Assembly (NCBI GenBank): GCA_958510875.1
Contig: OY294069.1
Coordinates: 3,472,001-3,536,000 of the forward strand
Length of the DNA: 64,000 nucleotides
Source: Endomychus coccineus
Taxonomy: Eukaryota > Arthropoda > Insecta > Coleoptera > Endomychidae
Reading direction: 5' to 3'
Part shown: piece by piece, positions 12,862 to 62,045 of the stretch
Layout of the letters: each line of letters begins with the position of its first letter
Position numbering within the stretch: the first letter of the stretch is position 1
Program-made: the position numbers and the translations under genes
The notes under the pieces: generated by a model
Seen by the model: the letters and a program-made list of their open reading frames with translations, nothing else
What the model was told of the DNA's origin: nothing
Database searches by the model: none

Positions 12862-12904
12862 TCGTTACTATAGTTTCAACACTAAACGTGTCATCTTCAG
12901 ACGA
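12862..12904 (-). ncRNA. Hammerhead-like ribozyme motif, family 2 left
   Basis: Read on the minus strand: stem I strand TCGT (12904-12901), core CTGAAGA (12900-12894; the fifth base is the variable core position), an unpaired T, stem II GACAC (12892-12888) with loop GTTTA and partner GTGTT (12882-12878), then GAAAC (12877-12873), a four-base loop TATA, GTA, and stem I strand ACGA (12865-12862). Stem III is only A-U plus C-G. Predicted cleavage follows GTA. All invariant core bases are present; the extra U after the core is non-canonical. Confidence 0.55.
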
Positions 12905-13409
12905 AAAATGAATTCAACAAATTAAATCTACTACATATAGGTTAAAGAAGGATTTCAAACAAATTTTATGGCTATAGGAAATAGTTCTAGGAAAAACCAG
13001 AGAGGGGTAAGGTGATTAGGTAATTCCGTGAGGACATTAGTGGTGCGGGTATATTTACTAACAGACTTCAAATACTAAAATCAGGTTATTAATACATTGA
13101 AGAGATTATTGTAATATAAATCCAGTTGATCGTTTAGGATCTTATTATCATACATCTTCATTCCTTTGAAAATTTCCATTCACTCTAATATATTTAGTTT
13201 CGAAGTTTTATCTTGACTATGTAAAATTTGGACATTATTCAAATTAGGAAAGGTATGGCCTGTTTCTAAAATATGATTTGCAAATGGAGAATCGGTTTTA
13301 TTATTTTTAAAGGAACGAAAATGTTCTTCATATCTAACTGCTATGTTACGACAAGATCTACCTATGTAAAAACTATCACACTTTTTTTAATATTTGTTAA
13401 ATTCATTTT

Positions 13410-13452
13410 TCGTCTGAATATGACACGTTCAGTATTGAAACTATAGTAACGA
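13410..13452 (+). ncRNA. Hammerhead-like motif, family 2 right, core mutated
   Basis: Same layout as the left motif: TCGT, then CTGAATA (13414-13420) in place of CTGANGA, unpaired T, GACAC, loop GTTCA, GTATT, GAAAC (13437-13441), TATA, GTA, ACGA. Stem I and most of stem II still pair, but the conserved core G is changed to T, so cleavage is not expected. Confidence 0.5.
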
Positions 13453-13549
13453 CTATATTAAATATCAGTGATAGTAAAACAAAGTAGTTTTATTTATTAT
13501 TTCGTTAAAATGATAAACTATCACAAAGTAACGGCTTCCACAACTGAAT

Positions 13550-13561
13550 TTCTAAATTATT
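13550..13561. repeat. Flanking direct repeat, right (TTCTAAATTATT)
   Basis: Perfect match to 12794-12805. Confidence 0.55.
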
Positions 13562-13786
13562 CGATAATTAATTAAGGCTATTCTTAATAATATTCTCGAA
13601 GTGATATTTCAATACTATATACTTAAAGATGTATTAATTACGTTCAATACTTAATAATTAACATTAAGCCTTAAGAATTTTTTTTCTGAACAAAATTTCA
13701 TTACTTTCCAATTAATTCCAATTAATTAAACAAATTGATACTATTTTCATTATCATACATTATTTCACATCACAACACCCATTGAA

Positions 13787-13930
13787 AAACACGGTGATCA
13801 ATCGATTACGTGAGTTCCCTCGTTTTTGTTAGTAAAATAGCTTTCGGACATTCCTCCGGGTCGAATGTAAATGATTGTAGAAACAGAAAGTCATTGGAAA
13901 TGATTCATAAGCTGCTGATGAAAAACATTA
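13787..13930 (+). repeat. Dispersed repeat, copy 1 of 3
   Basis: This stretch contains GTGATCAATCGATTACGTGAG, then a TTTTTGTTAG segment and a GGACATTCC..GTC.AATGTAA segment. The same order of words appears at 49968-50110 and, more diverged, at 20276-20400. The 20.3-kb copy is followed by a LINE reverse transcriptase scrap, so the repeat may be part of that LINE family. No protein is recognised. Confidence 0.5.
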
Positions 13931-14089
13931 GCTTATACTCTATGTTACATTGGCATTTTATCCGAATGGTCTACATAATGTATTTTCCAACTCTAGGTTT
14001 CATACTGACACCTGCAGTTGACTTTTATGATATAACATTTTTTTATACTGATACGATACTTGCTATCACATGAACTATCAATATTCACC

Positions 14090-14610
14090 ACAGAAGACAG
14101 TTTGTTTCCTTCTATCCTTTGACTACACGAGAGGAAAACTTATTGTGTTCGAAAAACTTCACGTGAGCCAACGGTAGAATATTGAGAGAGGAATTAGGCA
14201 TTTGCTTGGAGGTTATAGGCAAGGGGAAAGACCTCACTAGGCAATAACTTCTTCAACTGCACCGTTCGATACAAAAATGGAGACTGTAGGAAGAAGTTCG
14301 TCAGGTCTCGAGGTGGACAATGTAGGAACTAGTTTGAGCTCGTTTAGTTCACCTATCTGGAATCTGTCGCGGTGGAACAACAGACAAAATTTTTGATGAA
14401 CAGCGACCATGGAAATATCTTTAGGGAAGGAAGATGTCGCCCATCTTTCTACAATGCTCTAGAAAGGTCAACTAATTCATGACTGTGACATCATCAATCG
14501 AATAGCTTCTGGATAGGATGGAAATGCTTCAACGTATGTTTTGGAGCCGAACTCAAAATTTTTGAAGCGGTTTTCGCAATGGACCTCACATGATCATTCC
14601 GGGCTGTTGG
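14090..14610 (-). pseudogene. LINE C-terminal region, decayed
   Basis: Minus-strand translation in shifting frames gives RYFHGRCSSKILSVVPPRQ near 14420-14370, then YRTVQLKKLLPSEVFP near 14260-14210. These match the region after the reverse transcriptase of Jockey-like LINEs, ending in the 'RTAxLWNxLPxEVFP' motif. Stops and frameshifts are frequent. A homologous scrap on the plus strand lies at 17575-17790, sharing also the downstream FFEH words, so both are copies of the same 3' end. Confidence 0.65.
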
Positions 14611-14619
14611 TGGTGATTC

Positions 14620-15480
14620 CGAGCATGAATATGGAAGAATTCATAGAAATACTTGTATCATTAAATTAGGGATTGTGTGATCTGCCTTCTTTAAGAATAC
14701 GCAAGGTTGAGTTTTTGTTGCATCAAACTCCACTTGATTATCAGATCCACATTTCAAAATCGTTTGCAGATCTCCATTAATTGGATAAACCTATCTCTGT
14801 CTCGTTCCTCTGGCTTCATTGGATGGTACTAAGAGTCTAGATGAGAAAGCGATATGAAGTGTACCATTATCTGCTTTGGACTGGACAGGTGATCACTTCC
14901 AAATGATATGGTGCATAAGCAAAGTTGGTGCCAAAACAGATGCCTCTGGAACAGGGAGAATACTCCGTCAGCTACTACATGGAGAAGGAAAGCTATGTAT
15001 ACTGGTTGTGGTTTATTAATTTTTACCTAACACAGCAACTACACATTCTTGTATGTGGAATTTCCACTGATGATTTTTGAAAATACATTCATCACTGTGG
15101 TACATTCAAATCAACCATTTATTATCAACTTGTAGCTTGAAAAAAATGCACAAACGTGATCACCGGTAATTCAAATACTAATGAATAATGAATGAATTAA
15201 TAAGTTTGATTGAGTAAGAGGAATGTTATTTAAAGTTCAATAATTTGAAAGTTCATAATGAGTGTATATCAATATTGTATGAAGCCTCATCTTGTTCAAA
15301 CATCTCGTAATTACCATTAGAAGCATATAGTTGCCTGCACCACTTTATCCCGCTACATTGGACGAGAAATTTATTGACATAATTCGGTTGTGTTAATTTA
15401 CTCGCAGATAATATGACTTGCAGAACGTATTTAACGTTTGTTTCATAATAGACTACATATTAGAGATTAATTCGACGCTT
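14620..15480. other. No recognised gene
   Basis: No credible coding sequence or repeat was recognised. Confidence 0.4.
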
Positions 15481-15885
15481 TCAAATATTCACCCCGGAGG
15501 CCGCGTAATAATGTCAGCTGAACCGATGGGTTGCTAGATAAACAGATTAGAATAACGGAACTGAACGGAAACAACCTTCATTTCGGCGAATTAAATTCCG
15601 GACGGACGAGAGAGAGCAGCTTGCCATTCTGATATCCATAGTGACGTTATAATAAATATGCACGACTGAAAATATCGCCGCATAACCGAAAATCCATACA
15701 GGGATCACGTTACTAATCTATGCGGCATGGAAACGACAGTGTAAATTAACGTAATCGGATCGTCAGAATTTGTATCTGAGCGGACGATAATCGGGTTTTA
15801 AAAATTGAACCGGAATACAAATATATCGCGCGAATATTCAATCCCGCATCACGACATAGATGATAAGTCTCTAGGCGCGTTTGGA
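15480..15885. other. CpG-richer, apparently unique non-coding segment
   Basis: This segment contains far more CpG (for example CCGGAGGCCGCG, CCGGACGGACG, TATCGCGCGAAT) than its AT-rich surroundings and shares no obvious repeat with the window. No long open frame is present. It could be a conserved regulatory element inside an intron or intergenic region; that is inference from composition only. Confidence 0.3.
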
Positions 15886-15939
15886 AAACAACATGATATT
15901 ATTATACTAGTGTATTATTCATTAACCACTTGTAATGTG

Positions 15940-16021
15940 ATAAACTATAAAATAGTTCAAACTGTAGAAATACTATAACACTATAAATAAAAAATAATCA
16001 CTCTTATCCACTAAAAATAAC
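15940..16021. repeat. Outer end of hammerhead-like family 3, cut off
   Basis: The words AAATAATCACTCTTATCCACTAAAAATA match the inverse of the outer arm of the foldback at 42230-42690. The matching then stops abruptly at about 16021, where unrelated GC-richer sequence begins, so the ribozyme-bearing inner part is missing. Confidence 0.4.
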
Positions 16022-16145
16022 TATAAGCTACTGCTACCGCAGCCGCGCAAGATGACGTAATCAAAATCATCGTTTATCGCAGCATCTTGATTGGTGTACA
16101 GGTAGCTGATGTCAGCTGCAGGGCCTGTCGAAAGGCGCCTGAGAC

Positions 16146-16390
16146 GAGTAGGTATGGCGGCACTTTGACCAGACATTCTTGCCTGTAGGTATGGCGGCAC
16201 TTTGACCAGACAGTCTTGCCTGATGTTGGTAAGCATTGTCACTGTATTATCGGTCGAGAGGTCGCTTATAGACTGAGAAGTCACTGTATTATTGGCCGTG
16301 ACATACGTGTTCCAACATTCAGACACGAGTTTGAATGTTGAAACAAGTGACTCAGTTTCAAAATATGGGACTCTCTGTCAAATGCACGTG
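16146..16390. repeat. Relative of the 57.7-kb palindrome, with 37-bp tandem duplication
   Basis: It begins AGTAGGTATGGCGGCAC, close to the terminus AGTAGGTATCGGGGCACC of the palindrome at 57692. It also shares GTCACTGTATTA.CGG.CG and TTCAACATTCAGACACG with the interior of that element. A 37-bp unit is tandemly repeated with one mismatch (16149-16185, 16186-16222). The 101-codon minus-strand frame across it is a by-product of the repeat, not a gene. Confidence 0.55.
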
Positions 16391-17570: not shown

Positions 17571-17574
17571 ATAG

Positions 17575-17790
17575 GCGGACTAGATGAGCTCAAATTATTC
17601 ACATCTTCATTGTCAAGCTTGAGACCTATCGAACAGCGAAATTGTGGAACACTTTACTTAGTGAGGTCTTTCCTTATACCTATAATCTCCAAACCTTCAA
17701 GAAAAGTTTGAACACCTCTCCCAACATCACATCGCTGGCTTAAGTGATGTTCTTCGAACATTATAGGTTTCCTTCTTGTGAAGTCAAAGT
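17575..17790 (+). pseudogene. LINE 3' coding end, decayed
   Basis: In one plus frame the translation reads YRTAKLWNTLLSEVFPYTYN near 17635-17690 followed by LQTFKKSLNTS, which is the conserved C-terminal block of Jockey-like LINE ORF2 proteins. A homologous copy on the minus strand is at 14090-14610. The region upstream is too decayed to align. Confidence 0.65.
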
Positions 17791-17799
17791 ATAAAGAAG

Positions 17800-18710: not shown

Positions 18711-18712
18711 AC

Positions 18713-20400: not shown

Positions 20401-20429
20401 ATGATCTCTAGGTATAGTTTTGCCAACTT

Positions 20430-22110: not shown

Positions 22111-22111
22111 T

Positions 22112-22620: not shown

Positions 22621-22629
22621 CTAAGTTAT

Positions 22630-23438: not shown

Positions 23439-23859
23439 ATTCATACTTCAATTCATGCACTTCATAACTCATTATTATTAAGTTCTGTTATAAATTGTAT
23501 CAACAATAGTATTTCAATTACCAGTAAATTTCGATCATTCTGGGTACAGGTCTTTTATTTATTTGTATACTTTCAGGGTAATTTAACCTGGGGACTTTGA
23601 GTGTTTGAATCCCCTAGTTCAGAAACATACTTTATTGGTTGGTTAAAAATACTCTGGTGCCCAAATGTTAACATCTAAAATATAACTCACGACCGTCTTC
23701 ACTGTAGCTGTCGGCAACCAAGCGATAAAATAGACATTATAGCTCATCCACAAGTAAGAGTAATTTTTTACCTTTACAACGGTAATATGGCTTTCGTCTG
23801 CACAAATCAACAGTATACCTGCTTGCCTTTGTAACACATTTATAGCAGAAATCTATTGT

Positions 23860-28747: not shown

Positions 28748-28752
28748 CTGGT
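28748..28752. repeat. Target-site duplication, left (CTGGT)
   Basis: A five-base direct repeat bordering the BEL/Pao element, identical to 32532-32536. Five bases is the usual size for this superfamily. Confidence 0.85.
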
Positions 28753-28908
28753 TGTTATTGACTTATATTTACATTTAGTCTAGTTGAAATAGTTTATGAA
28801 AATGTTGACCAGAGATGGTCATGAATTGTCATATTGACGATTAATAAAAACTAAAAAAGTCAAATAGCATAATATAATTTTGCCTAAAATTAGTGTTTTG
28901 CCCAAACA
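28753..28908 (+). repeat. 5' LTR of BEL/Pao element
   Basis: 156 bp, TG...CA ends; it differs from the 3' LTR at two positions by eye (T/C near 28776, A/T in GATTAATAAAA). Confidence 0.9.
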
Positions 28909-28925
28909 TTTGGTCCTTTCGAGCC
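28909..28925 (+). promoter_or_regulatory. Probable tRNA primer-binding site
   Basis: TTTGGTCCTTTCGAGCC directly follows the LTR, where the tRNA 3' end would pair. The priming tRNA was not determined. Confidence 0.5.
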
Positions 28926-28991
28926 TTGTGGAAACATTTTGAGTTCAAGAATATTCAATTGAGCCATAATTGACGCCAAACTATATTCAAG

Positions 28992-30175
28992 ATGTCAAAA
29001 AGCGAAAAAGACGTTGTGAGAAAAACTAACAGATTCAATGCCGGAATCCCGCCTCTAAGATACAGTCCAAACGAAGAAAATAACATTGCTTCCAAAAAAT
29101 CCATCAGATCTAAGAGCTCCAAGAGTTCAGCAAGAAAAATTATAAAAGAAATAGAACTAAAGAAATTGGAGGTTATCAATAAACTACAGAAAGAATTTGA
29201 AGAAAGAGAGTTACAAAGACAAATAACTGAAGTTGAAGCACAAGCATCATTAGAATTGGAAGCTGACGAAAATTCTTATGAAGAAACAAAAAGCACGCAA
29301 GGTAAAAATAACGAAAGTGATGGAAATAAAGGAGTAAATTTGATTGAAAAAACACAAAGTGCACACGAAAAAGTGAAATCTTGGTTGTTAGAGGAAAAGT
29401 TTATCCAGTCAGCTCATGGTAGTGATGTATTTATACCGCCCGAAGAATATTCTCGATCAGCTAACAATGCAACAACTGAAGTAATAAAAGAATTCACAAC
29501 AGCTACTCAAGCCATGACAAAAGCATTCGAATCCTTAACCAATCCATCCAAAGTGACTTTTAGAAAAGTTATTGGTAAAGAACTGCCTTTGTTCTATGGA
29601 AATGTCGAAGATTGGCCTATGTTCATTTCGCTTTATAGAAGATCTACTGAAACCTGTAAATTCAATAATGAAGAAAATATGTTACGTCTCCAAAAAGCCC
29701 TGAAGATGAAGCTTTAGAAGCTGTCAAGTCACTATTTGTTTCCCCAGAAAATTTGGAAGATATTATTCGAACATTAGAAACTAGATTTGGTCGCCCTGAG
29801 TTCATAATCGATTCCATGACTAATAAAGTCAAACTGATGCCACCATTTTACACTCATTACCCGCTTTCTCTCATCAAATTTGCAAACTCTGTCCTGAACC
29901 TCACAGTTACTGCTCAATCTTTGGAAATGGAAGCCTACATCAACAACCCTCAACTCCTTACTCAACTCGTTCAAAAACTGCCTGAACATCCTCAATTTCA
30001 GTGGGCTAGAACCATTGTTGATAAAGAAAAGACCATATCAATGCCTACATTGAAGGAGTTTTCTGAGTGGTTACAGAAAGAATCATCAGCAGCTAGTTTA
30101 TTGTGCAACCTTCAAGTTCGAGTTTTACTTCGTCAGATCGATATCCAGAAAGAAAGCCCAAGAATACTGTTCTAG
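28992..30175 (+). pseudogene. BEL/Pao Gag region
   Basis: The ATG at 28992 opens a 241-codon frame rich in charged heptad-like sequence (about residues 50-95, probable coiled coil). It is followed by the DUF1759-type Gag domain (ELPLFYGNVEDWPMFISLYR). A one-base shift near 29700-29715 moves the reading to the frame at about 29706-30175 (LEDIIRTLETRFGRPEFI). A second shift near 30105 leads into the zinc-knuckle and protease frame. In intact relatives this is a single Gag-Pol polyprotein that forms virus-like particles. Here it is broken. Confidence 0.8.
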
Positions 30176-31000
30176 TTGGATCAGAAAAAACTCCAGATAG
30201 AAGAAATTGCATATTTTATTCTGAATCTGGCCACTATTTATATCGCTGTGAAACATTTTCATCATTGGAAACGGATGAAAAATGGGATTGGGTGAAGGAA
30301 CGTAAAATCTGTTTTTCATGTTTGTCTCCTTCTCATCGTATGTTTGAATGCAAAAATAAGAGACGCTGTGGAGTACAGAACTGTTCTAAATACCACAGTC
30401 GACTATTACATTCTGATTCATCTCCAAACAACCATTCCCACCACAACTTACAAGTCCAGAATGGTCCATTAAATGCCAAGGTCGATGAGAGGAAAAATGA
30501 ACCTGATAATTCTGCATGCTTTATAGATGAACATTCCCTTCAAGTCCGATCCGTAACAAAAACTGTCCTACTTAGAATTATCCCTGTCAAGATCATAGGT
30601 TTAAAAAAATCTGTTGAAACGTTCGCTCTTTTTGATGAGGGTAGCACAGTGACACTTATTGATGCTAATCTCGCAGAAGACATAGGAGTTCAAGGTACAA
30701 TTATCCTTTGAAAATGTACTGGACAAATTCTTCGTCATATATTGACAACCATTCCAGAAAAGTCAATGTGAAAATTCAAGGAAACCTTGATGATCAAATT
30801 TACGATCTAGATAATGTTCGCACAGTTTCAAATCTGAATCTTTCTATCCAATCCGTAGACGTTGAAAAATTTGTGAATAAGTGGAAACATTTAGAACAAG
30901 TTCCATTGTTAGATATCAGAGAAACCCAAACCCTTATTGCTTATTGGCCAAGATCATATCGATTTAACAATAGCCAGAGAGGTGATTCAAGGCCCATCTA
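30103..31000 (+). pseudogene. BEL/Pao zinc-knuckle, protease and linker region
   Basis: The frame 30103-30711 has Cys/His-rich nucleic-acid-binding motifs (KICFSCLSPSHRMFEC; RRCGVQNCSKYH) and an aspartic-protease-like segment with FALFDEGSTVTLID near 30630-30665, where the catalytic loop would be D-x-G. A frameshift near 30700 leads to the frame 30708-31001 (KVNVKIQGNLDDQIYDLDN), the segment between protease and reverse transcriptase. Another shift near 30940 follows. Confidence 0.75.
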
Positions 31001-32406
31001 ATGCTCCTGTAATCTCCAAGTCAAAATTAGGATGGGTAGTGCATGGTAACGTTTCCGAGTTCAAATACAGGGTTGACCAAGAATTTTCGATGTATGGTTT
31101 TTCCGAAACTAAAAGTGATGAAGATGAAGAATTGAAGAAACTAATCCAACAAGCCATTTTCATCGATAATTTGGGTATTGAAAACGAAAACAAAAAAATG
31201 TTATCTGAAGAGGACAAGAAAGGCATACAAATAATTGAAAAAACATGCCGACAACTAGAGAACCGCCATTGGGAAATTGGTTTACTTTGGAAGACAGAAA
31301 ATGTAATGTTACCAGGAAGTAGGACTACTGCCTTAAACAGATTACAAACGATAAAAAGAAAAATGGATCGGGACAGCCTGTTCGCAGATAGGTACTGTCA
31401 ACAAATAGAAAATTTTGGTAAGAAAGGATACCCTAGAGTTTTATCAAGCGAAGAATCTGCCTCCATTACTAATAGAACATGGTACTTGCCAATAACAGTA
31501 ACCATCGGTAGAAGAAGGGAGAAAAGATATGGGGTTATTTTTACCTGCATGTCTACTAGAGCGATTCACCTTGAATTGGCTTCTTCCCTCACAACTGACT
31601 CTGCGATTATGTCAATTCGTCGATTTATTTGCAGAAGAGGTAGTCCCACAGAAATATATTCCGATAATGGAACAAACTTGTGTGGGGCCGAAAAAGAGAT
31701 GCGAACAACCCTGCAAGAAATTGATTCAAACCAAGTTCAGCAATTCTGCTCCATAAGACATATACAATGGTTCAGAAAACCACCTGCATCAAGTCACATG
31801 GGAGGAGTGTGGGAACGGATAATACGATCTGTTAAGGATGCTTTGAGAACAGTTTTAACCCAGCAGAGCCCCAAAGAAGAAGTACTGCAAACCCTATTAG
31901 TCGAAGTAGAGTATACAGTGAACAGCCACCCACTCACGTATGTCTCTTCAGATCCTAAAGATGAAGGAGCCCTGACTCCCAATCATTTTCTGATAGGGAA
32001 ATTAAATGAAGTTACTTCACCGGGTAATTTTTCTAATTCTGATCTCCATTTGCGGAAACAATGGCGAATCGCTCAAAGGTTCGCCGATCAATTCTGGAAA
32101 CGATGGCTGAAAGATTTTGTTTCAACCTTAGTTAAAAGGAGCAAGTGGCAGTATAACAAGAACAACGTTTCCGAAGGTGATCTAGTAATTTTAGCTGACG
32201 ACAGTAGTCCAAGAAAGAAATGCTTGACCAAAAGGGAGAATCATCAAAACCTTTCCTGGTCGAGACAACAGAGTAAGAGTCGCCGATGTGAAAACTGCAA
32301 CTGGAGTTTATCGACGACTTATAACAAAAATGATATTGTTAAAACCGGTTTAGTATTTTTCGGAGGCCCGGAGGATGTTATTGACTTATATTTACATTCA
32401 GTCTAG
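30937..32406 (+). pseudogene. BEL/Pao pol with in-frame deletion: pre-RT fused to integrase
   Basis: This 489-codon frame begins in the conserved LIGQDHIDL block and continues to the N-terminal edge of reverse transcriptase (NRTWYLP near residue 185). It jumps in frame straight into the integrase core (TVTIGRRREKRYGVIFTC). The rest of integrase is present: the second catalytic Asp in YSDNGTN and the Glu in GGVWERIIRSVK. The first catalytic Asp, the integrase zinc finger and all of RT/RNase H are deleted. The junction falls at about 31488-31491. The frame ends inside the 3' LTR. Confidence 0.85.
32361..32375 (+). promoter_or_regulatory. Polypurine-like tract before 3' LTR
   Basis: CGGAGGCCCGGAGGA sits directly before the LTR, the place of the plus-strand primer. 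The C interruptions are as I would expect in BEL-type elements. Confidence 0.6.
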
Positions 32407-32531
32407 TTGAAATAGTTTATGAAAATGTTGACCAGAGATGGTCATGAATTGTCATATTGACGATTATTAAAAACTAAAAAAGTCAAATAGCATAATATAA
32501 TTTTGCCTAAAATTAGTGTTTTGCCCAAACA
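32376..32531 (+). repeat. 3' LTR of BEL/Pao element
   Basis: 156 bp, about 98.7% identical to the 5' LTR by eye, followed by the CTGGT duplication at 32532-32536. Confidence 0.9.
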
Positions 32532-32536
32532 CTGGT

Positions 32537-33289
32537 TCTTACAGATTCTCAATTGATTAGCGATTGTACTCTTCTGAAAATAGTCTAGGCTGACCATAGC
32601 TTGTCTTTTGCAGTTTTTGTCTCTTTGACTCATTCTTTGTAATAGTCGTCTCATTGAACTGTAACCTGGTTCCTATCCAGAATGAGTAGTTTTTCAGATT
32701 TAGTCTTCAAATATTATTTAATGCATAAGCAATTTCTGAAAAAATGAGTTGATCACAAATAATAGATATTAAACTTCTGAAGAAGAGAATATGGAATTTT
32801 CATAAAGACAAGCTACATTTTCAAGAACGAATACAAGGAGATTTATATAAAAAAGGAGATACTTCGAAGCAATCTTTCTTCAGTTCTCAGAACTACTACG
32901 GCAAAATGGAAAACCAGCTTCTGAATCAAACTAAAAGATATATAAAGTCATTCGTACTTGCGGCTAATTCTCATCTTATCATATCTTATCCGAGATAACA
33001 ATGTAGACAAAAAAATCAATCCGGCTATCATTAATGATGACTTGAACTTGGATGAATAAAGGTAATGTTTGGACATTCTACAACCAAGTATTTCATATCA
33101 TATTTACTTGAGAATATTGCATTTGTTCACATAGATGTACGCAATGGTGTCTAAGGTTCCGGACTAGATGTATAATATTGATTTTTTCCCATTCTGAGAT
33201 TACTTTTGATTGTTACTATTTGTTTTCATGTATATTTTAGTAGAGTATATTGAAACCAAGTAATGTAGGTTAACTTCAAATACATTTTC
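32537..33289. other. No recognised gene
   Basis: AT-rich, nothing recognised. Confidence 0.4.
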
Positions 33290-33302
33290 ATTAACAAATA
33301 TC
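33290..33302. repeat. Flanking direct repeat, left (ATTAACAAATATC)
   Basis: A thirteen-base perfect direct repeat of 34579-34591. It is a likely target-site duplication of the palindromic element. Confidence 0.55.
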
Positions 33303-33391
33303 ATAATAAATATTCTTGACCCACGTATGAATTAATACAAAATTCTCGGGAAATAGGTCACATTAACACATATATTTTTATTTTTACCCTC

Positions 33392-33433
33392 GTCTTTACG
33401 TACGTTCCGGTCTCTCGATCATCATCAGAAGAC
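33392..33433 (-). ncRNA. Hammerhead-like motif, family 1 left arm, core mutated
   Basis: On the minus strand: stem I GTCTT (33433-33429) and AAGAC (33396-33392) pair perfectly around the core CTGATGA (33428-33422). An unpaired T and an altered stem II follow, then GGAAC in place of GAAAC, loop GTAC and GTA. The change in the GAAA box should abolish cleavage. Confidence 0.5.
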
Positions 33434-34477
33434 TTATTAATACAATAACCTGATTACTTAGAAATACTGTAATAACACAATGCGTCCTTATCGCACAAAT
33501 TTCGTTTAAATGCCAACGTCACTGAAACGAACGGAAACATGAAATCGGAAATAACACAGCAATGTTGCACGTAAAAATTAAAAATCCACTATTAAGTAGA
33601 ATTAACAACAAATACGAACACATTTCATAAATGTCTGCGAGAGACTAACAGACAAAGAGTTCTATCCTCTTTGCTAACAGACGAGACCATCTCAAGTGTT
33701 CATTTAAGCGCCAGATGTCATAATTTATTAGGTGATAAAAGAAGGACTCTGGTCTCTACTTAAGACAATTCTACCTAAAGTAAACTTTTACAATATAGGA
33801 CACGTAAGTAGGAATTTGCAAGAATATTAATTAATTAAATTAGTATAAATATGACTTAGTGTTTGAACGTCACTCCTATGATTTACGGACTTGGAGTCAC
33901 GTTTTATGTGAATCATCTCCAGAATAGATCTTTTATAATAATTGGTTTCCTTAGTTAAAATATTAACTAAAGAAACCAATTATTATAAAAGATCTATTCT
34001 GGAGATGATTCACATGAAACATATCAAAATCTGTAAATCATAGGACAGATATTCAGACATTAAGTCAGATTTATACTAATTTAATTAATTAAAACTTGCG
34101 AATTCCTACTTACGTCCTATATTGTAAAAGTTTACTTTAGGTAGAATTGTCTTAAGTATTTCTCAGAGACCAGAGTCCTTCCTTTATCACCTAATAAATT
34201 ATGACATCTGGCGCTTAAATGAACACTTGAAATGGTCTCGTCTGTTAGCAAAGAGGATAGAACTCTTTGTCTGTTAATCTCTCGCAGACATTTATGAAAT
34301 GTGTTCGTATTTGTTGATGATTCTACTTAATAGTGGATTTTTAATTTTTACGCTGCAACATTGCTGTGTTATAGTTCCGTTCGTTTCGGCGACGTTGGCA
34401 GTTAAACGAAATTTGTGCTATAAGGACGCTTTGTGTTATTACAGTATTTCTAAGTAATCAGGTTATTGTATTAATAA

Positions 34478-34519
34478 GTCTTCTGATGATGGTCGTGAGA
34501 CAGAAACGTACGTAAAGAC
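34478..34519 (+). ncRNA. Hammerhead-like ribozyme motif, family 1 right arm
   Basis: Stem I strand GTCTT (34478-34482), core CTGATGA (34483-34489), unpaired T, stem II GGTC (34491-34494), loop GTGA, GACA, then GAAAC (34503-34507), loop GTAC (34508-34511), GTA (34512-34514) and stem I partner AAGAC (34515-34519). All core bases are present and stem I is a perfect 5-bp helix. One stem II pair is lost (GACA against GACC in the 62-kb copy). Predicted cleavage is after 34514. Confidence 0.55.
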
Positions 34520-34578
34520 GAGGGTAAAAATAAAAACATATGTGTTAATGTGACCTATTTCCCGAGAATTTTGTATTA

Positions 34579-34591
34579 ATTAACAAATATC
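34579..34591. repeat. Flanking direct repeat, right (ATTAACAAATATC)
   Basis: Perfect match to 33290-33302. Confidence 0.55.
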
Positions 34592-41960: not shown

Positions 41961-42274
41961 AGTTGGCTTAGACCTTATAAAAATTCATTATCACTTTTGA
42001 AAGGTTTCCAAGAAAATTGGAAACGAGCTTCTTGACAAACTCTGATATATTTAACTCAACAAGTTTCTTTGCACAGCAACAACGTCGGAAGTATTTCTAA
42101 GACATTTGCTAGTTTTTCCGTCGCATTCACCATTTTGTAGATTTATCAGGTGATTACAAATACGATATGTTATGATATCCGGTATCATCAACAATATATA
42201 CTAATAAGCTATGGAAGATTCCATACTGTGGTTATATTATAACACTATCTTTGAGAAATAATCAGCTTCATTGA

Positions 42275-42325
42275 AGTAATGAGGACCTTTCGGCTACCAA
42301 GTAGCCATCATCAGAGTAAACAATC
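42275..42325 (-). ncRNA. Hammerhead-like ribozyme motif, family 3 left
   Basis: On the minus strand: core CTGATGA (42314-42308), unpaired T, a perfect 6-bp stem II GGCTAC (42306-42301) and GTAGCC (42297-42292) around TTG, then GAAA (42291-42288) and a minimal stem III in AGGTCCT. Stem I pairs only partly (TTACT with ATTAC). The stem II sequence is unrelated to families 1 and 2 but sits in the same frame after the extra T. Confidence 0.5.
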
Positions 42326-42569
42326 GGTAAATATATGATTTGTATTTCTAATTCATCCAAAGATTATAAATCGTAATCATAAAGGTAATGCTAAAGATGA
42401 AGTAAAACGTATATGTCTTGACCTTGAAAATATAAGGTAATAATCCTATTAAATTATTAAATAAAATAAAAATAAATAATGGAATAAAAATTAAGGTACT
42501 CCCGCAACCCATTGCTTACATTATTATCCCCGAATAGTGTTCAAACAGGCACATTTTTATTTACAATTT

Positions 42570-42620
42570 AGTTTAGTCTGATGATGGCTACTTGATAACC
42601 GAAAGGTCATCAGTACTTCA
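42570..42620 (+). ncRNA. Hammerhead-like motif, family 3 right, stem II weakened
   Basis: Core CTGATGA (42578-42584), T, GGCTAC (42586-42591), loop TTG, ATAACC (two changes from the paired GTAGCC), GAAA (42601-42604), then AGGTCAT. The core is intact but stem II is partly unpaired. Confidence 0.45.
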
Positions 42621-42672
42621 ATAGTATTTTTAGTGGATGAGGGTGATTATTTCTTATCTATACTGAAGCAGT

Positions 42673-53252: not shown

Positions 53253-53613
53253 TAACTTCATAAAAAAGTGGTATATTAAAAAAACGTTATGCTCAGTTAG
53301 TGATCGAACTATTATTTTCTGAACATTTGAATATAATGAATAATGGAAGAAGAATAATATATAATATGATCATCTAGCTCTATTGAAAATAACAGTACTT
53401 TCACTTCAATTTATTTTTTTTGCATATAAGTTCTATAAGTCCTATAGCGAATTCTTTGGCTTATGAGAATCTAATTGGCCTAATTAATAATGATAATAAT
53501 AATAATAAATTACACACAAATAGAATAGATCGATTCAAGAATGCTGAAAACGGATATATCCGCGAGAATCCGCAAAATTATTTTGGGCCCATTATGATAC
53601 TTTCCTAACACTA
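53253..53613. other. Spacer between hAT and mariner
   Basis: AT-rich; contains an (AATA)n-like microsatellite near 53487-53508. No gene. Confidence 0.5.
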
Positions 53614-53615
53614 TA

Positions 53616-54243
53616 CAACGTGATTTACGTAGGCCGTGCATTAGAAGTTTTTCAACTTGCAGTTGGACTAGAAACTTGAAATTTGGTATGCTGTCATAAT
53701 TGATCATGTGCGTTCTACCTCAAATGTTTTTAGTCCTACAATTATACAGGGTATGCCAAAAGTCGGTACCAACTTTCTTATTTTAAATGGAAACCTAATG
53801 TTTTTTTGTCATGGTTCGATTGACCTTCTGATTATGACTTTAGACAACCTAAGTTATGTTTACTTATCTATCACAGTTTTTGAGATATGTCCATTTTTCT
53901 GAAAAAAATTACGGCTGTAGTAGTTTACGAAAACACGTTTAGCCCGCAAACTGTTCAAAATTAGGAAACCAAATTTATGGAGCAGTTAGCTGGTAGTCCA
54001 GGCTAACACCTGATGTCCCATCGACGGTCCCATTTTGTACCATATGGGCGCAGGCGATTTTTGAATGTCGCAATATAAAATTGTCAAAAACTCAATTTTT
54101 TCAAATGGCACCTACCATTTTTTTTCAACCATTCGAAAGAAAATTGAATTTTAGGATGAGTTATTTCAGCATTCCCTATACCCAAGTTCCACCTCTATCG
54201 AGTTATTCATTAAAAATCAAGAAATGCCTTATCCTGCCGAATG
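53616..54243 (+). repeat. Left 628-bp terminal inverted repeat
   Basis: Starts CAACGTGATTTACGTAGGCC and ends GCCTTATCCTGCCGAATG. About 130 bp in, TATACAGGGTATGCC resembles a more usual Tc1/mariner end. Confidence 0.88.
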
Positions 54244-54358
54244 CTTTTGTGTTTATTCAAGTATGCCATGAAAACAAAAAAAAACTGTAAACAAGAAGGT
54301 GCTATTCTGTCAAAGTAAAAACTAGTCGTGCTAATTCTTAAATAAAATTGATTGGAAT

Positions 54359-55420
54359 ATGGAAAATTATACAAACGAAGTTGTGTTTGACTTGTTTGTT
54401 ATCCACGGCATGTGTCAAAAAATTGTGCAGCGAACTGTCCGAGAGTTTAATTTGAAATATCCAAACTTACCGAGGATGACACGGGGCAAGTTCTCACGAT
54501 TTAAAACTAATTTTATACATTTTGGGAAGGTGGCTAGACCCGTTACGAGAGTCAAACCACTAACTGGCAATGACGATAATCAAATTACCATTCTCGGATA
54601 TTTTCAAGCATATCCTCAAGCCTCAATACGAACGGCGTCTTTGGAATTGGGATTTTCATACTCTGCAATACAAACCATTTTACAACGCCATAAGCTACAT
54701 CCTTTCAAATTTATACGATTGCAAAAATTACACCCAGGTGACTTTCCCCGTAGAGTAAACTTTTGCGAGGACTTATTACTCAAAATACAAGAGCACGCCG
54801 GATTCTTAGACAACATAATTTGGACTGATGAGGCAAAGTTTTGTCAGCAGGGAGTTTACAATAGGCGCAATCGACATTTTTGGGCTTCTGAAAATCCACA
54901 TATGGTGTTCGAAGTTGAAAATCAAGTACAATTTCGAATAAATGTGTTTTGTTTGGTAATGAACCAAGAGGTACGCTACTTTATGTACTATGAAAATCTG
55001 AATGGTGACAGATATGTAGAAATTCTTCGAAACGTAATAGAAACATTTCTTGACAATTTGCCACTGGCTAGAGCTGCACGTTCATGGTACCAGATGGATG
55101 GGACACCACCGCACAATACACGAACTGTGTTTACCACATTGACATCCATGTTCGAGCACCGTTGGTGGGGAAATCGAGGACCCTTTCTCTGGCCTGCAAG
55201 ATCTCCAGATCTTACCCCTTTAGATTTTTATATTTGGGGTAGGGCAAAAGATTTGGTCTATTCTTCACCAGTTCACAATATAGATGAGTTGAGACTTAGA
55301 ATAATACAGACTTTTGACAGTCTCGATCCCAACGAAATCAGACGTGCTACGCAATCTATTGAAAGTAGAATAATAGAATGTTTGAACAACAATGGTGGTC
55401 ATATTGAACATTTACGCTAG
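54359..55420 (+). CDS. DD41D mariner-family transposase
   Basis: A 353-residue uninterrupted protein. Residues about 5-60 form the N-terminal DUF4817/helix-turn-helix DNA-binding part, and about 75-130 a second helix-turn-helix (ASIRTASLELGFSYSAIQ). The catalytic triad is Asp157 in IIWTDEAKF, Asp247 in YQMDGTPPHN and Asp289 in SPDLTPLDF; 41 residues separate the last two, the DD41D spacing. It catalyses cut-and-paste transposition at TA sites by binding the terminal repeats. The ATG at 54359 is the first in frame, 115 bp inside the left repeat's inner edge. Length is typical for the superfamily. No stop, shift or lost catalytic residue is seen. Confidence 0.92.
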   Translation: MENYTNEVVFDLFVIHGMCQKIVQRTVREFNLKYPNLPRMTRGKFSRFKTNFIHFGKVARPVTRVKPLTGNDDNQITILGYFQAYPQASIRTASLELGFSYSAIQTILQRHKLHPFKFIRLQKLHPGDFPRRVNFCEDLLLKIQEHAGFLDNIIWTDEAKFCQQGVYNRRNRHFWASENPHMVFEVENQVQFRINVFCLVMNQEVRYFMYYENLNGDRYVEILRNVIETFLDNLPLARAARSWYQMDGTPPHNTRTVFTTLTSMFEHRWWGNRGPFLWPARSPDLTPLDFYIWGRAKDLVYSSPVHNIDELRLRIIQTFDSLDPNEIRRATQSIESRIIECLNNNGGHIEHLR

Positions 55421-55497
55421 AGTTCTGTCAATATTGTTCAATATTTTTGATTAAATTATTACAATTTTCTTTTGTTTCCATGGCATACACACATAAT

Positions 55498-56125
55498 CAT
55501 TCGGCAGGATAAGGCATTTCTTGATTTTTATTGAATAACTCGATAGAGGTGGAACTTGGGTATAGGGAATGCTGAAATAACTCATCCTGAAATTCAATTT
55601 TCTTTCGAATGGTTAAAAAAAAATGGTAGGTGCCATTTGAAAAAATTGAGTTTTTGACAATTTTATATTGCGACATTCAAAAATCGCCTGCGCCCATATG
55701 GTACAAAATGGGACCGTCGATGGGACATCAGGTGTTAGCCTGGACTACCAGCTAACTGCTCCATAAATTTGGTTTCCTAATTTTGAACAGTTTGCGGGCT
55801 AAACGTGTTTTCGTAAACTACTACAGCCGTAATTTTTTTCAGAAAAATGGACATATCTCAAAAACTGTGATAGATAAGTAAACATAACTTAGGTTGTCTA
55901 AAGTCATAATCAGAAGGCCAATCGAACCATGACAAAAAAACATTAGGTTTCCATTTAAAATAAGAAAGTTGGTACCGACTTTTGGCATAACCTGTATAAT
56001 TGTAGGACTAAAAACATTTGAGGTAGAACGCACATGATCAATTATGACAGCATACCAAATTTCAAGTTTCTAGTCCAACTGCAAGTTGAAAAACTTCTAA
56101 TGCACGGCCTACGTAAATCACGTTG
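55498..56125 (-). repeat. Right 628-bp terminal inverted repeat
   Basis: Inverse copy of 53616-54243. A short open frame in each repeat (53708-53902 and 56033-55839) translates almost identically, which reflects the repeat identity and not a gene. Confidence 0.88.
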
Positions 56126-56164
56126 TATGCTATGTATAATGAGGGAACTCAAAATTAAGAGTGA

Positions 56165-56360: not shown

Positions 56361-56369
56361 TTAATAAAA

Positions 56370-57030: not shown

Positions 57031-57039
57031 GTATAAACT

Positions 57040-57440
57040 ATAAAAGAGTTCACACTGTGGAAGCACTATTACACTATAAATACAAATCCACTGAAAATAT
57101 TGTTAAAGTACTAAGGATCTTCCAGCTACCACGTGGCCACGTGTCTGTTTAAATACTATTTGGGGATTATAAGGGTTAACCTCAGGTAGTGATAAATCGG
57201 AATTCAATAAATTGTTTTCCTGTTTATACATTTCCATCGTTTCTAATTACCTACATATTTTTCCGTACTGTGCGATAAGGACGCCTTGTGATGAGACAAT
57301 TAATTTCAAGGAATAACGTTTTAGACATTGATACAGCTTCTGATGATGGTCGTGATATCGAAACTTACATAAATACGGAAATAATAACCATATGTGCTAG
57401 TGCGAGCTATTTCTCAAGAATTTATATATAATAACTAGGA
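57040..57440. mobile_element. Hybrid hammerhead-like element (family 3 end, family 1 end)
   Basis: The left part (57045-57160) matches the outer end of family 3 in inverted orientation (ACACTATAAATA..., then GTACTAAGGATCTTCC). The right part (57262-57435) matches the outer end of family 1 (GTGCGATAAGGACGC, CTGATGATGGTCGTGA, CATATGTGCTAGTG). So two different ribozyme-bearing ends face outward from one short element. The left motif has lost its core; the right one is partly preserved. Confidence 0.5.
57335..57376 (+). ncRNA. Hammerhead-like motif, family 1, weakened
   Basis: Core CTGATGA (57340-57346), T, GGTC, loop GTGA, TATC (stem II partly paired), GAAAC (57360-57364), loop TTAC, ATA. The core is intact but stems II and III are damaged. 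Confidence 0.4.
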
Positions 57441-57685
57441 TAAATTCAAGCAAACTAATATTAAATTTAATATTTTCCAGCCAGTCAGTTTTCTCATGCA
57501 CACCTGCAAGTGAAAGGGAACAGTATCTTTCCTAATTTAATCATCAACAAATTCCCACAAATCTTCTATTTTATCAAATGTAACTATTTTATTGAGGCGA
57601 AATAATCCGGTGAACTTTTCGGTTGGCAAAGTAAGTTGCTGGTCTCTCTAATATGCCTGCATTGTAGTCTAAGAATCTTCCTTAC
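57441..57685. other. Spacer
   Basis: AT-rich, nothing recognised. Confidence 0.4.
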
Positions 57686-57691
57686 AATTGA

Positions 57692-58532
57692 AGTAGGTAT
57701 CGGGGCACCTTGGCCCGCCTGATAGAGAGCCTTATCAGATGTAGGCAACCAGTAGCGCATGCGCGGTAGTGTATTATCAGCTGGGGTAGATGGTGTGACC
57801 TCTAGGGTGTGGTCGTCTCTGACCTTCTGTTGGTGGTAGAGCGATCAGCTTGTATATACAAGCAGCTTGTAGGGTTGGGGCATATACAAGGTCTCACGAA
57901 TCAGCTTGTAGGGTTGGGGCATACACAATGTGAGGTTAGGGAGAATTTCAGTTGTATGTAAACATAGAGTCACTTGGGCGAGACAGTCCCAGACAGTCTT
58001 ATCAGATGTCGGTCACTGCATTGCCGGCCGGGAGGATGGAGGTCACTGTATTACCGACCGAAAAAACTTGTCAAACGCGTGTTTCAACATTCAGACACCT
58101 GTTTTAACAAGTGTTTGACACGAGTTTCAAAATGCAGACACGTGCTTCAACATTGAGACACGTGCTTTCGGTCGGAAATACAGTGATCTCCAACCTCTCG
58201 ACTGGTAATGCAGTGACCGACATCTGACTGTCTGGCGCTGTATCGCCCAAGTGACTCTATGTTTACATACAACTGAAATTCTCCCTAACCTCACATTGTG
58301 TATGCCCCAACCCTACAAGCTGATTCGTGAGACCTTGTATATGCCCCAACCCTACAAGCTGCTTGTATATACAAGCTGATCGCTCTACCACCAACAGAAG
58401 GTCAGAGACGACCACACCCTAGAGGTCACACCATCTACCCCAGCTGATAATACACTACCGCGCATGCGCTACTGGTTGCCTACATCTGATAAGGCTCTCT
58501 ATCAGGCGGGCCAAGGTGCCCCGATACCTACT
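57692..58532. mobile_element. 841-bp palindromic element with 6-bp target duplication
   Basis: Arms of about 365 bp (57692-58060 and 58165-58532) are almost perfect inverse copies. The ends read AGTAGGTATCGGGGCACC and its inverse. A 6-bp direct repeat AATTGA flanks it (57686-57691 and 58533-58538). Inside each arm a 27-bp unit (CAGCTTGTAGGGTTGGGGCA...) occurs twice, 39 bp apart. The centre (58065-58165) repeats TTCAACATT.AGACACGTG-like words. No gene. The 6-bp duplication with AG...CT ends is what Polinton/Maverick elements show, so it may be a non-autonomous relative; that is a hypothesis. Confidence 0.75.
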
Positions 58533-58539
58533 AATTGAA

Positions 58540-60040
58540 TATTCTAAAGTACCTCGAATAAATCTTCATAACCACTTAGCACCTACCTATTTTCGTTATT
58601 TCCGAACTCTTGGAAGAAATATTAATGGAACAAGTGGTTCTCTGCCATACTCCTGATATTTCATCTTGTCTTGTTATGCTTGGCAAGTATTATGAGGTTA
58701 CTGAGGTAGCAATTTTGATAGCAAGATTTCCTTCATACTGCTCAAAATTGAATTTTGCTGTGGAAGCAATATTTTTTCTAGACAATATTGCTATTTGCAA
58801 ACAAGATAGGTGTGATTATCATAACAAAACAACCATGAAATCCGTAGATCTTTTCGAATATCCTTCTGCTTATAGCGTCTCAAAATATGCCAAAGCACGA
58901 ATATTCCCTTCAAAAAGCGACATCTTTTAGTAAAAAACAAAACAGTACTACTTTCTTCATTGCCATATCAACCGTTACCCCCTCATTCATCATCTCATTT
59001 TAACAACATAGAATCACATATATAACCTATGGAATTTAATGCGGTGGAGGGCAAACCGCCTCTAACTAATTACACTTACGTAATCGCTCACAACAATGAT
59101 GTGTTTGAAATTTAATTTCCCAAGGGTTACTAAAACAATTCATGAATTCATTTCGCGAGGATAACATCAGAATAAGCTTGCTACTGATACTTTGATACGT
59201 TAATGTGTAGTTGTCACTCTTTGCAATTTCATGCAAGCCAGATTTTCATGAACTCGAATCGAAAAAACGATTTAGACTAAGCGATCGTTGTGACTCAATA
59301 AATTGGAGACACTAAGTAGTTTAGTATTCATATTTATTCGACGTGTCTGTATTCTACTATAGAAATAAAAGAGAAATGAGACAAGACAAGGTCTAATTTT
59401 TGCGTCGTGATGTAACATGCTTTATGCTTTTATTCGCACAACCGTCTCGAGTAAAACTCTACGAAATGTCTGTATTTGATAAGAGATTCCTCTGGGCAAA
59501 ATGTTGCGACTTAGACTTTGTATCTCTATGTCATGTTAGTCGTTCACCGTAACACCCTGGAGCTATACATGGGCACGCAGTGTTCGGTTTGACGGAGAAA
59601 AGGAATAACTGCAAAAATCGTTCTGTGGTGCAACTTGTTGATTTATATTTCTGTTTTATGTTATTCCTTTTCGAAATGTTGATAATCCCTAGTATATAGG
59701 ATGATTTGGAATGATGTGCGTTCTCTTGAACAACGTGTTCAAAAAGTAATTTTAAAGGAGTATTTCATTGGTTTATCGAATGCCATACAACACTAACGGG
59801 GTAGTTTCATATTTAATGTTAATTACTGTTTTGTAAGCATAGCTTCAACTTTACGTCACAGTAAAATCCAAATCTATAATATTCTCGGTTCCTGTGTTAG
59901 AAAAGATATGTGAATGAAGTATCTCATCTAGACAGGCTGTTGCTTTAATCAGGATGTGCAAAGAGTAACTTCAAGGGGGGGAGGGGGGTAAAGTATAAAA
60001 CAAGTCAACTGAAACATCAGTTTTTCAATTTACTCAGACA
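58540..60040. other. No recognised gene
   Basis: A 106-codon plus frame (58610-58930) has no recognised relative. A G-rich run (GGGGGGGAGGGGGG) lies near 59976-59989. Confidence 0.4.
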
Positions 60041-60049
60041 TCGTTAAAT

Positions 60050-61158
60050 CTTTAGAAGAAAACAGCAGCGGTCTTATTCATAGACCTGTCAAAGTCATTT
60101 GATCGTCTCAACAGAGACTATTCAATAGAGAAACTACAAAATATGATGCTGGAAGAAATGCGGCACTTGGCTCACATTATACTTCTCGGATCGTTCACAG
60201 TGTGTTTCAATTGCTAAGGATGGAAAAATCGTGAAGTCTAATAAATAACCAAATCTCGTGGGAGTCCTACAAGATACATATTGGGTCATATATTGGTCTT
60301 AATAATGATCAATGATTTGAATAGTATAGCTAGCCAAGACTATTCTGCAATCAAAAATGTTGCGGAGCAGTGAAGATTAATATAAGAATGTAATGATTTG
60401 TTTAATCAAGCAAAAAACTGGTTTGACAGGAATGGTCTAGTTATTGATGAGGAAAAGACTATTTTAATAATATACAATGCCAATAAATCAAAAGACAAAC
60501 CTTCGAGTATGCTAATTAATGGCAGGGATATCCTCACTGTCAAGTACACCAAGTTTCTTGGAATCATTACTGATGAATTTTTGAAATGGTCACTACATAA
60601 AGAACACTCACTGAAAAAGCTGAATCAGGTCTGCTATGCTGTCAGGTTGATAGGAAAATACATAGAGGATGATGTTAAAAAAATCCTATACTATGCGAAT
60701 TTCGAATCGTTATATTTCGGGGTGTAAGTCCAACAACCCACTCAATTTTTTCAGCTCAAAAAATAATCTCACGCATAATACTTATCATGAAGATCAGAGT
60801 TTCATGTAGAAATAAATTTAAACAAATAGGACTTCTTACGGTATATGGCTTACATTTGCACGAATGTCTTTATTTATTTAGAAATAAGATGCATTTTTTA
60901 CAAAATAGCACTGATGTTAATTACAATTAGCACTTTAGATATTTGTTATGCTATTCACAGGTTGCCAAGTCGTATAAAATTGATAACAGACTATGGAGAA
61001 TTTGGAACAATAACCAAGAAACTTCTAACCAATTGTTTAGAGGATTATTTTGGAACGTAAACGTTTTTTTTTGGCATAATCATTTATATTCATTCATATT
61101 GACACCATTTCATTTTGTGATTTGAGACTAAATTCTAAATAAAGATTATTATTATTTT
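60050..61158 (+). pseudogene. LINE 3' half, with (ATT)n tail
   Basis: Read across frames on the plus strand: FIDLSKSFDRLNRDYS is motif A with its catalytic Asp (about 60085-60135), a damaged PQGS-like block follows near 60265, then the open frame 60398-60727 (WFDRNGLVIDEEKT, KFLGIITDEFLKW, and YYANFESLYFG) covers the region after the catalytic site. Decayed C-terminal words follow (KIRVSCRNKFKQIGLLTVYG near 60790-60845). It ends with AATAAAG and an ATTATTATT tail at about 61140-61158, a typical CR1/Jockey-like 3' end. The FADD motif is missing or too damaged to see. Confidence 0.8.
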
Positions 61159-61159
61159 T

Positions 61160-61925
61160 ATTGATATATGGGGTGAAATATTTTGCCATTTTCACCACGT
61201 TGTAGGATGGTTGTGACGTTCAGTAACGTTGTAAACTTGCTTGTTCCACTAATGAGCTCTATAAGAATAACGAAAAAGCTGTCTGTAACTATAAATTTGA
61301 GACATTACTCATCGATCCGGACTAGAAACACCTCTCATCTTCGTTATATGGAGAAAGTCAACATAAGATAAATCAGTATGTATATTCACTTATTAATCTG
61401 TTTCTGATTCTCTTACATTGATATGGATTTTACGGTGACGTAATTCAAAGAATATCCTCACAATTCAGTAATTTACATCAAATATTAAACTACCTCGTTA
61501 CTGTTGTATAGGATTTGATAAACCAATGAAAGACTGGAATGCCGAGTATTGAAGGAAGGAAACAAACAGAATGGAAAGTGTGTCTTTTGTTGTAAAATTG
61601 CACATAACTTCCACGCAGCTTTTGTTTCCTGATTAAACCAAATTGCAGCCGTCTATTGTCTAGCCAATGCCGCACTATACCTGGTACTAATTGAATAACG
61701 ACGCAGTTTATTGTATTTGCATTAATTCGCCCCGTGTCGACAATAATTGTGTTACTAAATATGTTAGAATAAGCTCGATGACTTGGCACGTGTAATAGAA
61801 GATGGATTCAGTCTATTGTTGATGTAAAATACAACTGCACTCTTCCAGAACGTTGACCACAAAAGGACAACCGTTGCACGAGATTATAGCATGAGTATAT
61901 ATTTTGGAAATCAGAAAAACCCGTA
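61160..61925. other. No recognised gene
   Basis: Nothing recognised. Confidence 0.4.
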
Positions 61926-61934
61926 AAACACAAT

Positions 61935-62045
61935 TATGTATAAGACCTCGGGAAATAGGTCACACTGACACATATGCTTATTTTTTCGTCTATACGTACG
62001 TTTCGGTCTCACGACCATCATCAGTGAACAGCCTAAACAAAATAG
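61935..62045 (-). repeat. Single end of hammerhead-like family 1
   Basis: CTCGGGAAATAGGTCACA, ACACATATG, CGTACGTTTCGGTCTC and ACCATCATCAG match the outer end of the palindrome at 33.3-34.6 kb. Only one end is present here, without an inverted partner nearby. Confidence 0.6.
61986..62029 (-). ncRNA. Hammerhead-like ribozyme motif, family 1, best-preserved core
   Basis: On the minus strand: core CTGATGA (62024-62018), unpaired T (62017), perfect stem II GGTC (62016-62013) with loop GTGA and GACC (62008-62005), GAAAC (62004-62000), loop GTAC (61999-61996), GTA (61995-61993), then stem I strand TAGACG, which pairs imperfectly with TGTTCA before the core. Every invariant hammerhead position is filled; only the unpaired T is unusual. 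Confidence 0.6.

Follow-up and report, generated by a model that had tools for sequence, protein, structure and literature searches.

What kind of element places hammerhead ribozymes in outward-facing pairs, and what does an additional U beside their core mean for how they act? Both questions are raised by a 64,000-nucleotide stretch of the 906.4-Mb genome of the beetle Endomychus coccineus (C3:3472001-3536000), hereafter the window, in which an earlier note described three families of free-standing inverted-repeat elements with hammerhead-like motifs, labelled here F1, F2 and F3. Our analysis indicates that the window very probably holds remnants of several families of Penelope-like elements (PLEs), the pairs being 5′-truncated and mostly dead single insertions, and that F1 bears a small predicted type I hammerhead with an extra U. 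PLEs are well known and very abundant among insect jumping genes, and PLE-linked hammerheads are a known kind, of which these families are new members.

The hammerhead families and Penelope-like elements

Searched at up to three mismatches, the F1 motif occurs at 23,533 places in the 906-Mb genome (11,735 + 11,798), against none for the reversed pattern used as control. One of these places is a tandem array (L354) in which three F1 motifs stand 2,966 bp apart; its first two units are identical at 2,958 of 2,966 positions, and an 820-codon open frame is present in each of two units. Residues 250-820 of this open reading frame (ORF) match 223 proteins (7,998 candidates scored, 120 listed). Among the matches listed, several records combine PF00078 with PF01541, one is annotated as a predicted GIY-YIG endonuclease, and others are named insect proteins, the best of which comes from Coccinella septempunctata (49% over 60%). 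Through these homologues the F1 ORF shows the union of reverse transcriptase (RT) and GIY-YIG endonuclease in one frame that characterizes PLEs, and the array shows their tandem units with pseudo-long terminal repeats (pLTRs). Retrozymes are short tandem repeats without an ORF, whereas the F1 unit has 2,966 bp and carries one.

The last ~44 codons of this ORF are found by tblastn in both halves of the F1 palindrome of the window, in opposite senses, and an endonuclease fragment inside the F3 insertion resembles the end of the F1 ORF (BLASTP, 29% over 96 aa, E 6e-7), so that F1 and F3 are, as far as sequence tells, Penelope-like elements. The F3 peptide had no useful relatives in Pfam, NCBIfam, PDB, the protein collection, phages or GTDB contigs. 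F2 has the same ribozyme architecture as F1 and F3, and at another locus (L381) a PLE endonuclease end lies 0.4 kb upstream of the ribozyme. Scans of viral contigs returned phage loci and no PLE; in one set of ten loci, three were coding-looking chance matches and the rest longer phage hammerheads. The connection with PLEs proposed earlier is thus confirmed by the ORF ends in F1 and the endonuclease fragment in F3, while the supposed new inverted-repeat ribozyme elements are recast as 5′-truncated PLE insertions, recognizable by ORF ends in their arms, direct repeats and unequal arms.

Structure and origin of the outward-facing pairs

The window F1 insertion is 90.8% identical to its own inverse over 33330-34581, and both of its arms match the L354 unit, the left up to reference position 620 and the right up to 595. 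Among the first 100 listed F1 places we found 14 neighbouring outward pairs within 4 kb; twelve of them and the window pair form a 13-row comparison, L355 was compared apart, and the fourteenth (L370) and the inward L368/L369 were left out of the repeat test. Every one of the 13 rows has one arm end within reference 582-600 and one within 615-625, a difference of 21-39 nt that corresponds to the one-arm tail of about 31 nt known from PLEs. Direct repeats of 12-15 bp accompany each of the 13, some overlapping the arm by up to 9 nt or sitting as much as 8 nt away from the end; in 59 of 60 trials with random stretches of the window, the longest shared word did not exceed 9. L355 has a 12-bp repeat and arm ends at 591 and 621, and L355 and L370 share the same two arm end points. 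Within the first 100 listed places, neighbours at 500 bp or less were outward in 7 of 7 cases. Judged by their ends, the outward-facing pairs are single insertions.

The outward orientation reported for the window stands for 12862/13410, 33392/34478 and 42275/42570, but not for 57335 (+) and 61986 (−): the former is head to head with an F2-like fragment near 57130, and the latter is a single copy whose similarity to other copies begins at the core. F2-like sequence next to F1, head to head, is seen both at 57087-57376 of the window and at 6339-8380 of L354, perhaps through template mixing in one insertion, or as two insertions.

Long inverted arms, terminal direct repeats and the near-perfect palindrome of F1 also recall foldback or miniature inverted-repeat transposable element (MITE)-like DNA transposons, moved by a transposase and containing hammerheads in their terminal inverted repeats by chance. 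Such elements have equal terminal repeats and a transposase; here the arms are unequal, with two different end points, a PLE ORF lies inside, the direct repeats vary between 12 and 15 bp, and full copies are PLEs in direct tandem. The finding of PLE ORF ends in the arms led us to drop this idea, which we regard as extremely improbable.

As PLE insertions, the pairs have precedents. Work on the Penelope of Adineta vaga presents head-to-head pLTRs as typical of PLEs (PMC3846280), and for a lizard PLE both DNA strands are reported to be cut and extended, with two start sites bounding the tail (PMC11167929). The pairs would come from two cDNAs primed on opposite strands and joined head to head, or from self-priming. 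The PLE protein would nick AT-rich DNA and copy the RNA from both sides, or the first cDNA would prime itself; the expected product is two outward 3′ ends joined head to head, one of them about 31 nt longer. Because F1 in the window is palindromic to its centre, self-priming is favoured for that copy, whereas the mitochondrial atp6 piece between the F2 arms favours joining of separate ends for F2. The rule of one long and one short arm bears on how PLEs prime both DNA strands.

Ribozyme motifs in the window

The window was scanned for CTGANGA followed by 0-3 inserted nucleotides, stem II and GAA, with 100 dinucleotide shuffles as control. With one inserted nucleotide and a perfect stem II of at least 4 bp, three matches were found, one per family (12900−, 42314− and 62024−; shuffle mean 0.09, maximum 2), and the other insert lengths (0, 2 and 3) gave no match with a perfect stem II in the window. 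Tolerating one stem II mismatch raised the single-nucleotide class to six (shuffle mean 0.8, maximum 3), and the classes with 0, 2 and 3 insertions to 2, 1 and 1 (shuffle means ~0.8), both no-insert matches being F1 copies in a different register. The motif therefore stands well above shuffles, as the earlier note had it, but of the ten or so motifs credited there with one architecture only 12862-12904 (minus strand) is intact in the core and all three stems. This copy has the type I core (CUGANGA...GAA, A15.1-U16.1 and H17), which is also seen elsewhere in the genome in copies of F1 and F2 and of two more families.

Rfam gave nothing at the gathering threshold for the window, and a permissive scan gave inverted repeats resembling microRNA models, together with weak matches attributable to chance, but no hammerhead; RF00008 scored 12.9 bits (threshold 48.5) over the short stretch 61995-62057. 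Since Rfam likewise found no hammerhead in eight phage loci with canonical or U-insert motifs, and only a tRNA in eight with U-insert motifs, we consider this null uninformative. The folding z-scores of the motifs were unremarkable.

The extra U after A9

In a type I hammerhead stem II follows A9 directly; here one extra nucleotide, U, intervenes. We take it as the mark of a variant, because active exceptions occur in nature (PMC3705267). Five or more families of this genome have the U, in line with the earlier description of a constant extra U. A strict scan covered 264 kb, namely the window and 20 stretches of 10 kb at even spacing, and gave six full motifs, all with one extra nucleotide (U 5, A 1; without the window U 4, A 1; shuffles 0.03). 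A relaxed scan gave 18 (U 13, none 2, A 1, C 1, GA 1; in shuffles, 0.2 with U and 0.3 without insert), of which 12 lay outside the window (U 8, none 1, A 1, C 1, GA 1). Two further families were recovered (L381 plus 7128 and L390 minus 3108), as was an intact F2 copy (L393 minus 3431). A single hammerhead-like motif at L381 minus 7386 has A in place of the U. The presence of U in 28 of 28 aligned genome copies was not used, as one of the two seeds contained T and four of the 28 are F2 copies.

The same insertion is common outside the beetle. In viral contigs, with a GGCC stem II, at least 120 stretches had a U insert and at least 120 no insert, against 8 with A, 4 with C and 15 with G. Full type I folds were obtained for 67/134 with U, 75/148 with none, 0/6 with A, 2/4 with C and 4/14 with G; when downstream parts were redealt among the matches, the control gave 11.9, 3.6, 0, 0.4 and 1.0, respectively. 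Extra-U phage hammerheads lie, for instance, in the IMG/VR loci L013 (4071, 5101, 5840), L047, L097 and L117. Purine-rich start signals stand just downstream of 49 of the 67 full U motifs and of 63 of the 75 without insert.

The earlier note took the unpaired U for a variant form that may need dimerization. On a stricter version of that idea, the U weakens the monomer and is why dimers are needed. The recurrence of the U across families and its place as a bulge next to the core, which it could disturb, would suit this version. However, one viroid hammerhead has an extra A there, and a review reports that the change A10->U sped its trans-cleaving 3-4-fold, C or G being harmful (PMC3705267). Moreover, many U-insert phage hammerheads have a stem III of 3-11 bp, so that the U is not tied to stem III loss. 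We therefore consider weakening by the U very unlikely; the extra nucleotide looks tolerated, is probably favoured, and need not be seen as a defect.

On a bolder reading, which we hold only tentatively and would not favour over its negation, U-after-A9 hammerheads may be a natural, selected subclass found in PLEs and phage leader ribozymes, with A9-U-G10.1 serving in some PLEs, the lizard one presumably among them, as the AUG of the ORF and the cut separating start codon from ORF. In such a subclass U would be inserted as a rule and A, C or G seldom, matching the one published mutant series in which U was best. If true, cutting would convert a PLE messenger into a transposition template. Retention of the U as an ORF start was rejected for F1, F2, F3 and fam5, where the A9-U-G frame stops inside the motif; in fam4 the frame is open over the 13 codons examined. 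In F1 (L354) it reads MVVRPKRT, eight codons, and its stop UAA spans the predicted cut site. We found no description of the extra U as a natural class in PLEs or phages, in a literature search that lacked the key PLE ribozyme papers.

Stems, covariation and probable action as dimers

Covariation in stems I and II had been put forward as a signature of selected structure. Between families it stands: across five families, in which those beyond the original three and the F1 and F2 representatives were chosen by a scan requiring pairing, the type of base pair varies at 7 of 8 positions of stems I and II, and all are paired. Within F1, the 24 rows of the 28-copy alignment share one common stem I and one common stem II, their differences are decay, and no compensated double change occurs.

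Stem III reads ACGUACGU in F1, ACUAUAGU in F3, AGGUCCU in F2 and ACGU in two other families, every one of them self-complementary, F2 with one central mismatch. For the two octamers, computed energies were +2.4 and +2.9 kcal/mol as hairpins and -9.8 and -7.2 kcal/mol as duplexes; of the three stable stems expected of a hammerhead, stem III is thus unstable as a hairpin and stable as a self-duplex. When whole motifs were folded as two strands without constraints, the active form was not obtained. Since the U mutant of the viroid ribozyme is the faster one and stem III is tiny and self-complementary, we attribute any need for dimers to stem III and not to the U, and probable dimer action is upheld on predicted energies. 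Review passages likewise describe PLE hammerheads as minimal, without helix III, and possibly cleaving as dimers (PMC6155905, PMC7761336).

In the F1 unit, the predicted small type I hammerhead lies in the pLTR just before the ORF, with an extra U after A9 and a stem III too short for stability on its own. An inverted pair would be transcribed into one sense and one antisense ribozyme and hence form no tandem dimer in cis, but tandem copies such as those of L354 can, by our inference, form one within a single RNA. Such an RNA would pair two hammerheads through stem III (ACGUACGU, ACUAUAGU, AGGUCCU or ACGU), and these would cut after A17 (predicted for F1 and F3) or C17 (predicted for F2), yielding unit-length RNA.

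Several observations weigh against PLE insertions with cutting ribozymes. Pfam scored no family for the L354 ORF itself and a PDB search gave weak RT matches only (E 0.12 and above), so that its assignment rests on protein matches and anatomy. No PLE ORF was found for F2, no clear target duplication at the F2 pair or the mixed F2/F1 pair near 57.1-57.4 kb, and no direct repeat within the range searched at L354, whose right end is F2-like. F1 neighbours at 501-4000 bp include four inward and three same-sense cases beside seven outward ones. Most window copies lack a complete type I core and could not cut, and covariation is absent inside F1. In the lizard PLE, the ribozyme reportedly did not cut without protein, ribozyme mutants left in vitro insertion unaffected, and no RNA-seq reads ended at the cut site (PMC11167929), so ribozyme processing may be dispensable.

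These lizard results, dispensability in vitro and the lack of RNA ends at the cut site (PMC11167929), are also what would be expected if the hammerheads were passive passengers, their bases kept for template recognition by the RT/endonuclease and not for cutting in vivo. Yet five or more families with differing stem sequences preserve both the core and the pairing, which a protein-binding sequence would not need, and we consider the passenger explanation unlikely, though less so than the other two alternatives. The 23,533 F1 places in one genome offer a large natural set for studying the role of PLE hammerheads, and the extra U may turn one laboratory observation on a viroid ribozyme into a natural rule that holds in phages too.

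Features of the window

The coordinates of the insertions and their parts are given in Table 1. The window has three further features. At 53613-56128 lies a DDE_3-type transposon. Its open frame of 361 residues falls below the Pfam cut-off, and its inverted arms (644-678 nt) are 97-99% alike. Another near-complete palindrome, 90% self-inverse, occupies 57685-58537, in which the pattern scan found no hammerhead. LTR-like direct repeats, 96% alike, flank integrase and DUF5641 coding remnants at 28750-32540.

Table 1 Hammerhead motifs, PLE remnants and flanking repeats in the window
Feature	Position	Strand	Basis or remark
Old F3-like PLE insertion, decayed outward arms	1579..3750		inverted arms 1579-1689 and 3640-3750, 80%
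PLE endonuclease fragment in old F3-like insertion	2457..2615	-	tblastn to F3 peptide, 45%, 5.3e-6
F3-like hammerhead remnant without core	3657..3690	+	core lost
F3 left direct repeat, 12 bp	12794..12805		exact repeat at ends
F3 insertion: 5′-truncated PLE plus inverted pLTR piece	12806..13549		arms 12800-12922 and 13392-13514, 93%; right arm longer
F3 hammerhead, left arm	12862..12904	-	core and all stems intact, alone among window copies
PLE endonuclease fragment (YIG side), one in-frame stop	13084..13386	-	same sense as intact F3 ribozyme
F3 hammerhead, right arm, decayed	13410..13452	+	CTGAATA
F3 right direct repeat, 12 bp	13550..13561		exact repeat at ends
F1 left direct repeat, 13 bp (target site duplication)	33290..33302		direct-repeat search of ends (12 bp in another comparison)
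F1 insertion: two head-to-head, 5′-truncated copies of PLE 3′ end	33303..34578		palindromic to centre
F1 hammerhead, left arm, decayed	33392..33433	-	stem II mismatch, GGAA
PLE ORF C-terminal end, residues 776-819, left half	33833..33964	-	tblastn of L354 ORF, 91%, 7.7e-18
PLE ORF C-terminal end, residues 777-819, two pieces, right half	33960..34086	+	tblastn, 6.5e-10
F1 hammerhead, right arm, decayed	34478..34519	+	first stem II pair broken
F1 right direct repeat, 13 bp	34579..34591		overlaps end of arm similarity by 3 nt
F2 pair, limits approximate	42254..42654		arms 42270-42333 and 42558-42622, 86%
F2 hammerhead, left arm	42276..42319	-	core, stems II and III kept; stem I lost beyond first pair
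Mitochondrial atp6 fragment, two frames, between F2 arms	42317..42500	-	PF00119, 5.5e-8, 33.4 bits, just below curated 33.9
F2 hammerhead, right arm, decayed	42573..42616	+	stem II mismatches; stems I and III lost
F2-like arm fragment without core	57087..57140	-	contains motif near 57130
F1 hammerhead, decayed	57335..57376	+	stem II mismatches; PLE arm match 57319-57434
F1 hammerhead, single copy	61986..62029	-	core, stems II and III kept; stem I lost beyond first pair

Comparison with known systems

Small PLE-associated hammerhead variants that cleave as dimers are reportedly the subject of a 2017 paper by Lunse, Weinberg and Breaker, to go by its title. Among the systems closest in anatomy is PAc, the Poseidon PLE of Anolis carolinensis, which is described as having a hammerhead in the pLTR at the start of the ORF, tandem units, RT and GIY-YIG in one ORF, and two RT start sites bounding the tail (PMC11167929), all as in F1. 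In PAc the start codon follows G8, where stem II begins, and the cut lies 26 bp further downstream; the distance from A9-U-G to A17 in F1 is also 26 nt, and because of this equal spacing the same extra U is likely present in the PAc ribozyme. The two differ in that the A9-U-G frame of F1 stops after eight codons and its ORF starts further on.

The Penelope of Adineta vaga likewise forms 5′-truncated copies with inverted pLTRs, a one-arm tail (31 bp), junction palindromes and captured foreign DNA; its duplications measure 8-10 bp against 12-15 bp in this genome, and the passages available leave hammerheads unmentioned (PMC3846280). The plus-strand hammerhead of chrysanthemum chlorotic mottle viroid has one extra nucleotide between A9 and G10.1 as here, although it is A in the viroid and U in the beetle, U being the faster viroid mutant (PMC3705267). 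Metazoan retrozymes and the hammerheads of newt and axolotl, as portrayed in PMC7229834, share the type I form, weak stem III, palindromic tetraloop and action as dimers; they are tandem repeats without an ORF, whereas the hammerheads described here belong to an autonomous PLE.

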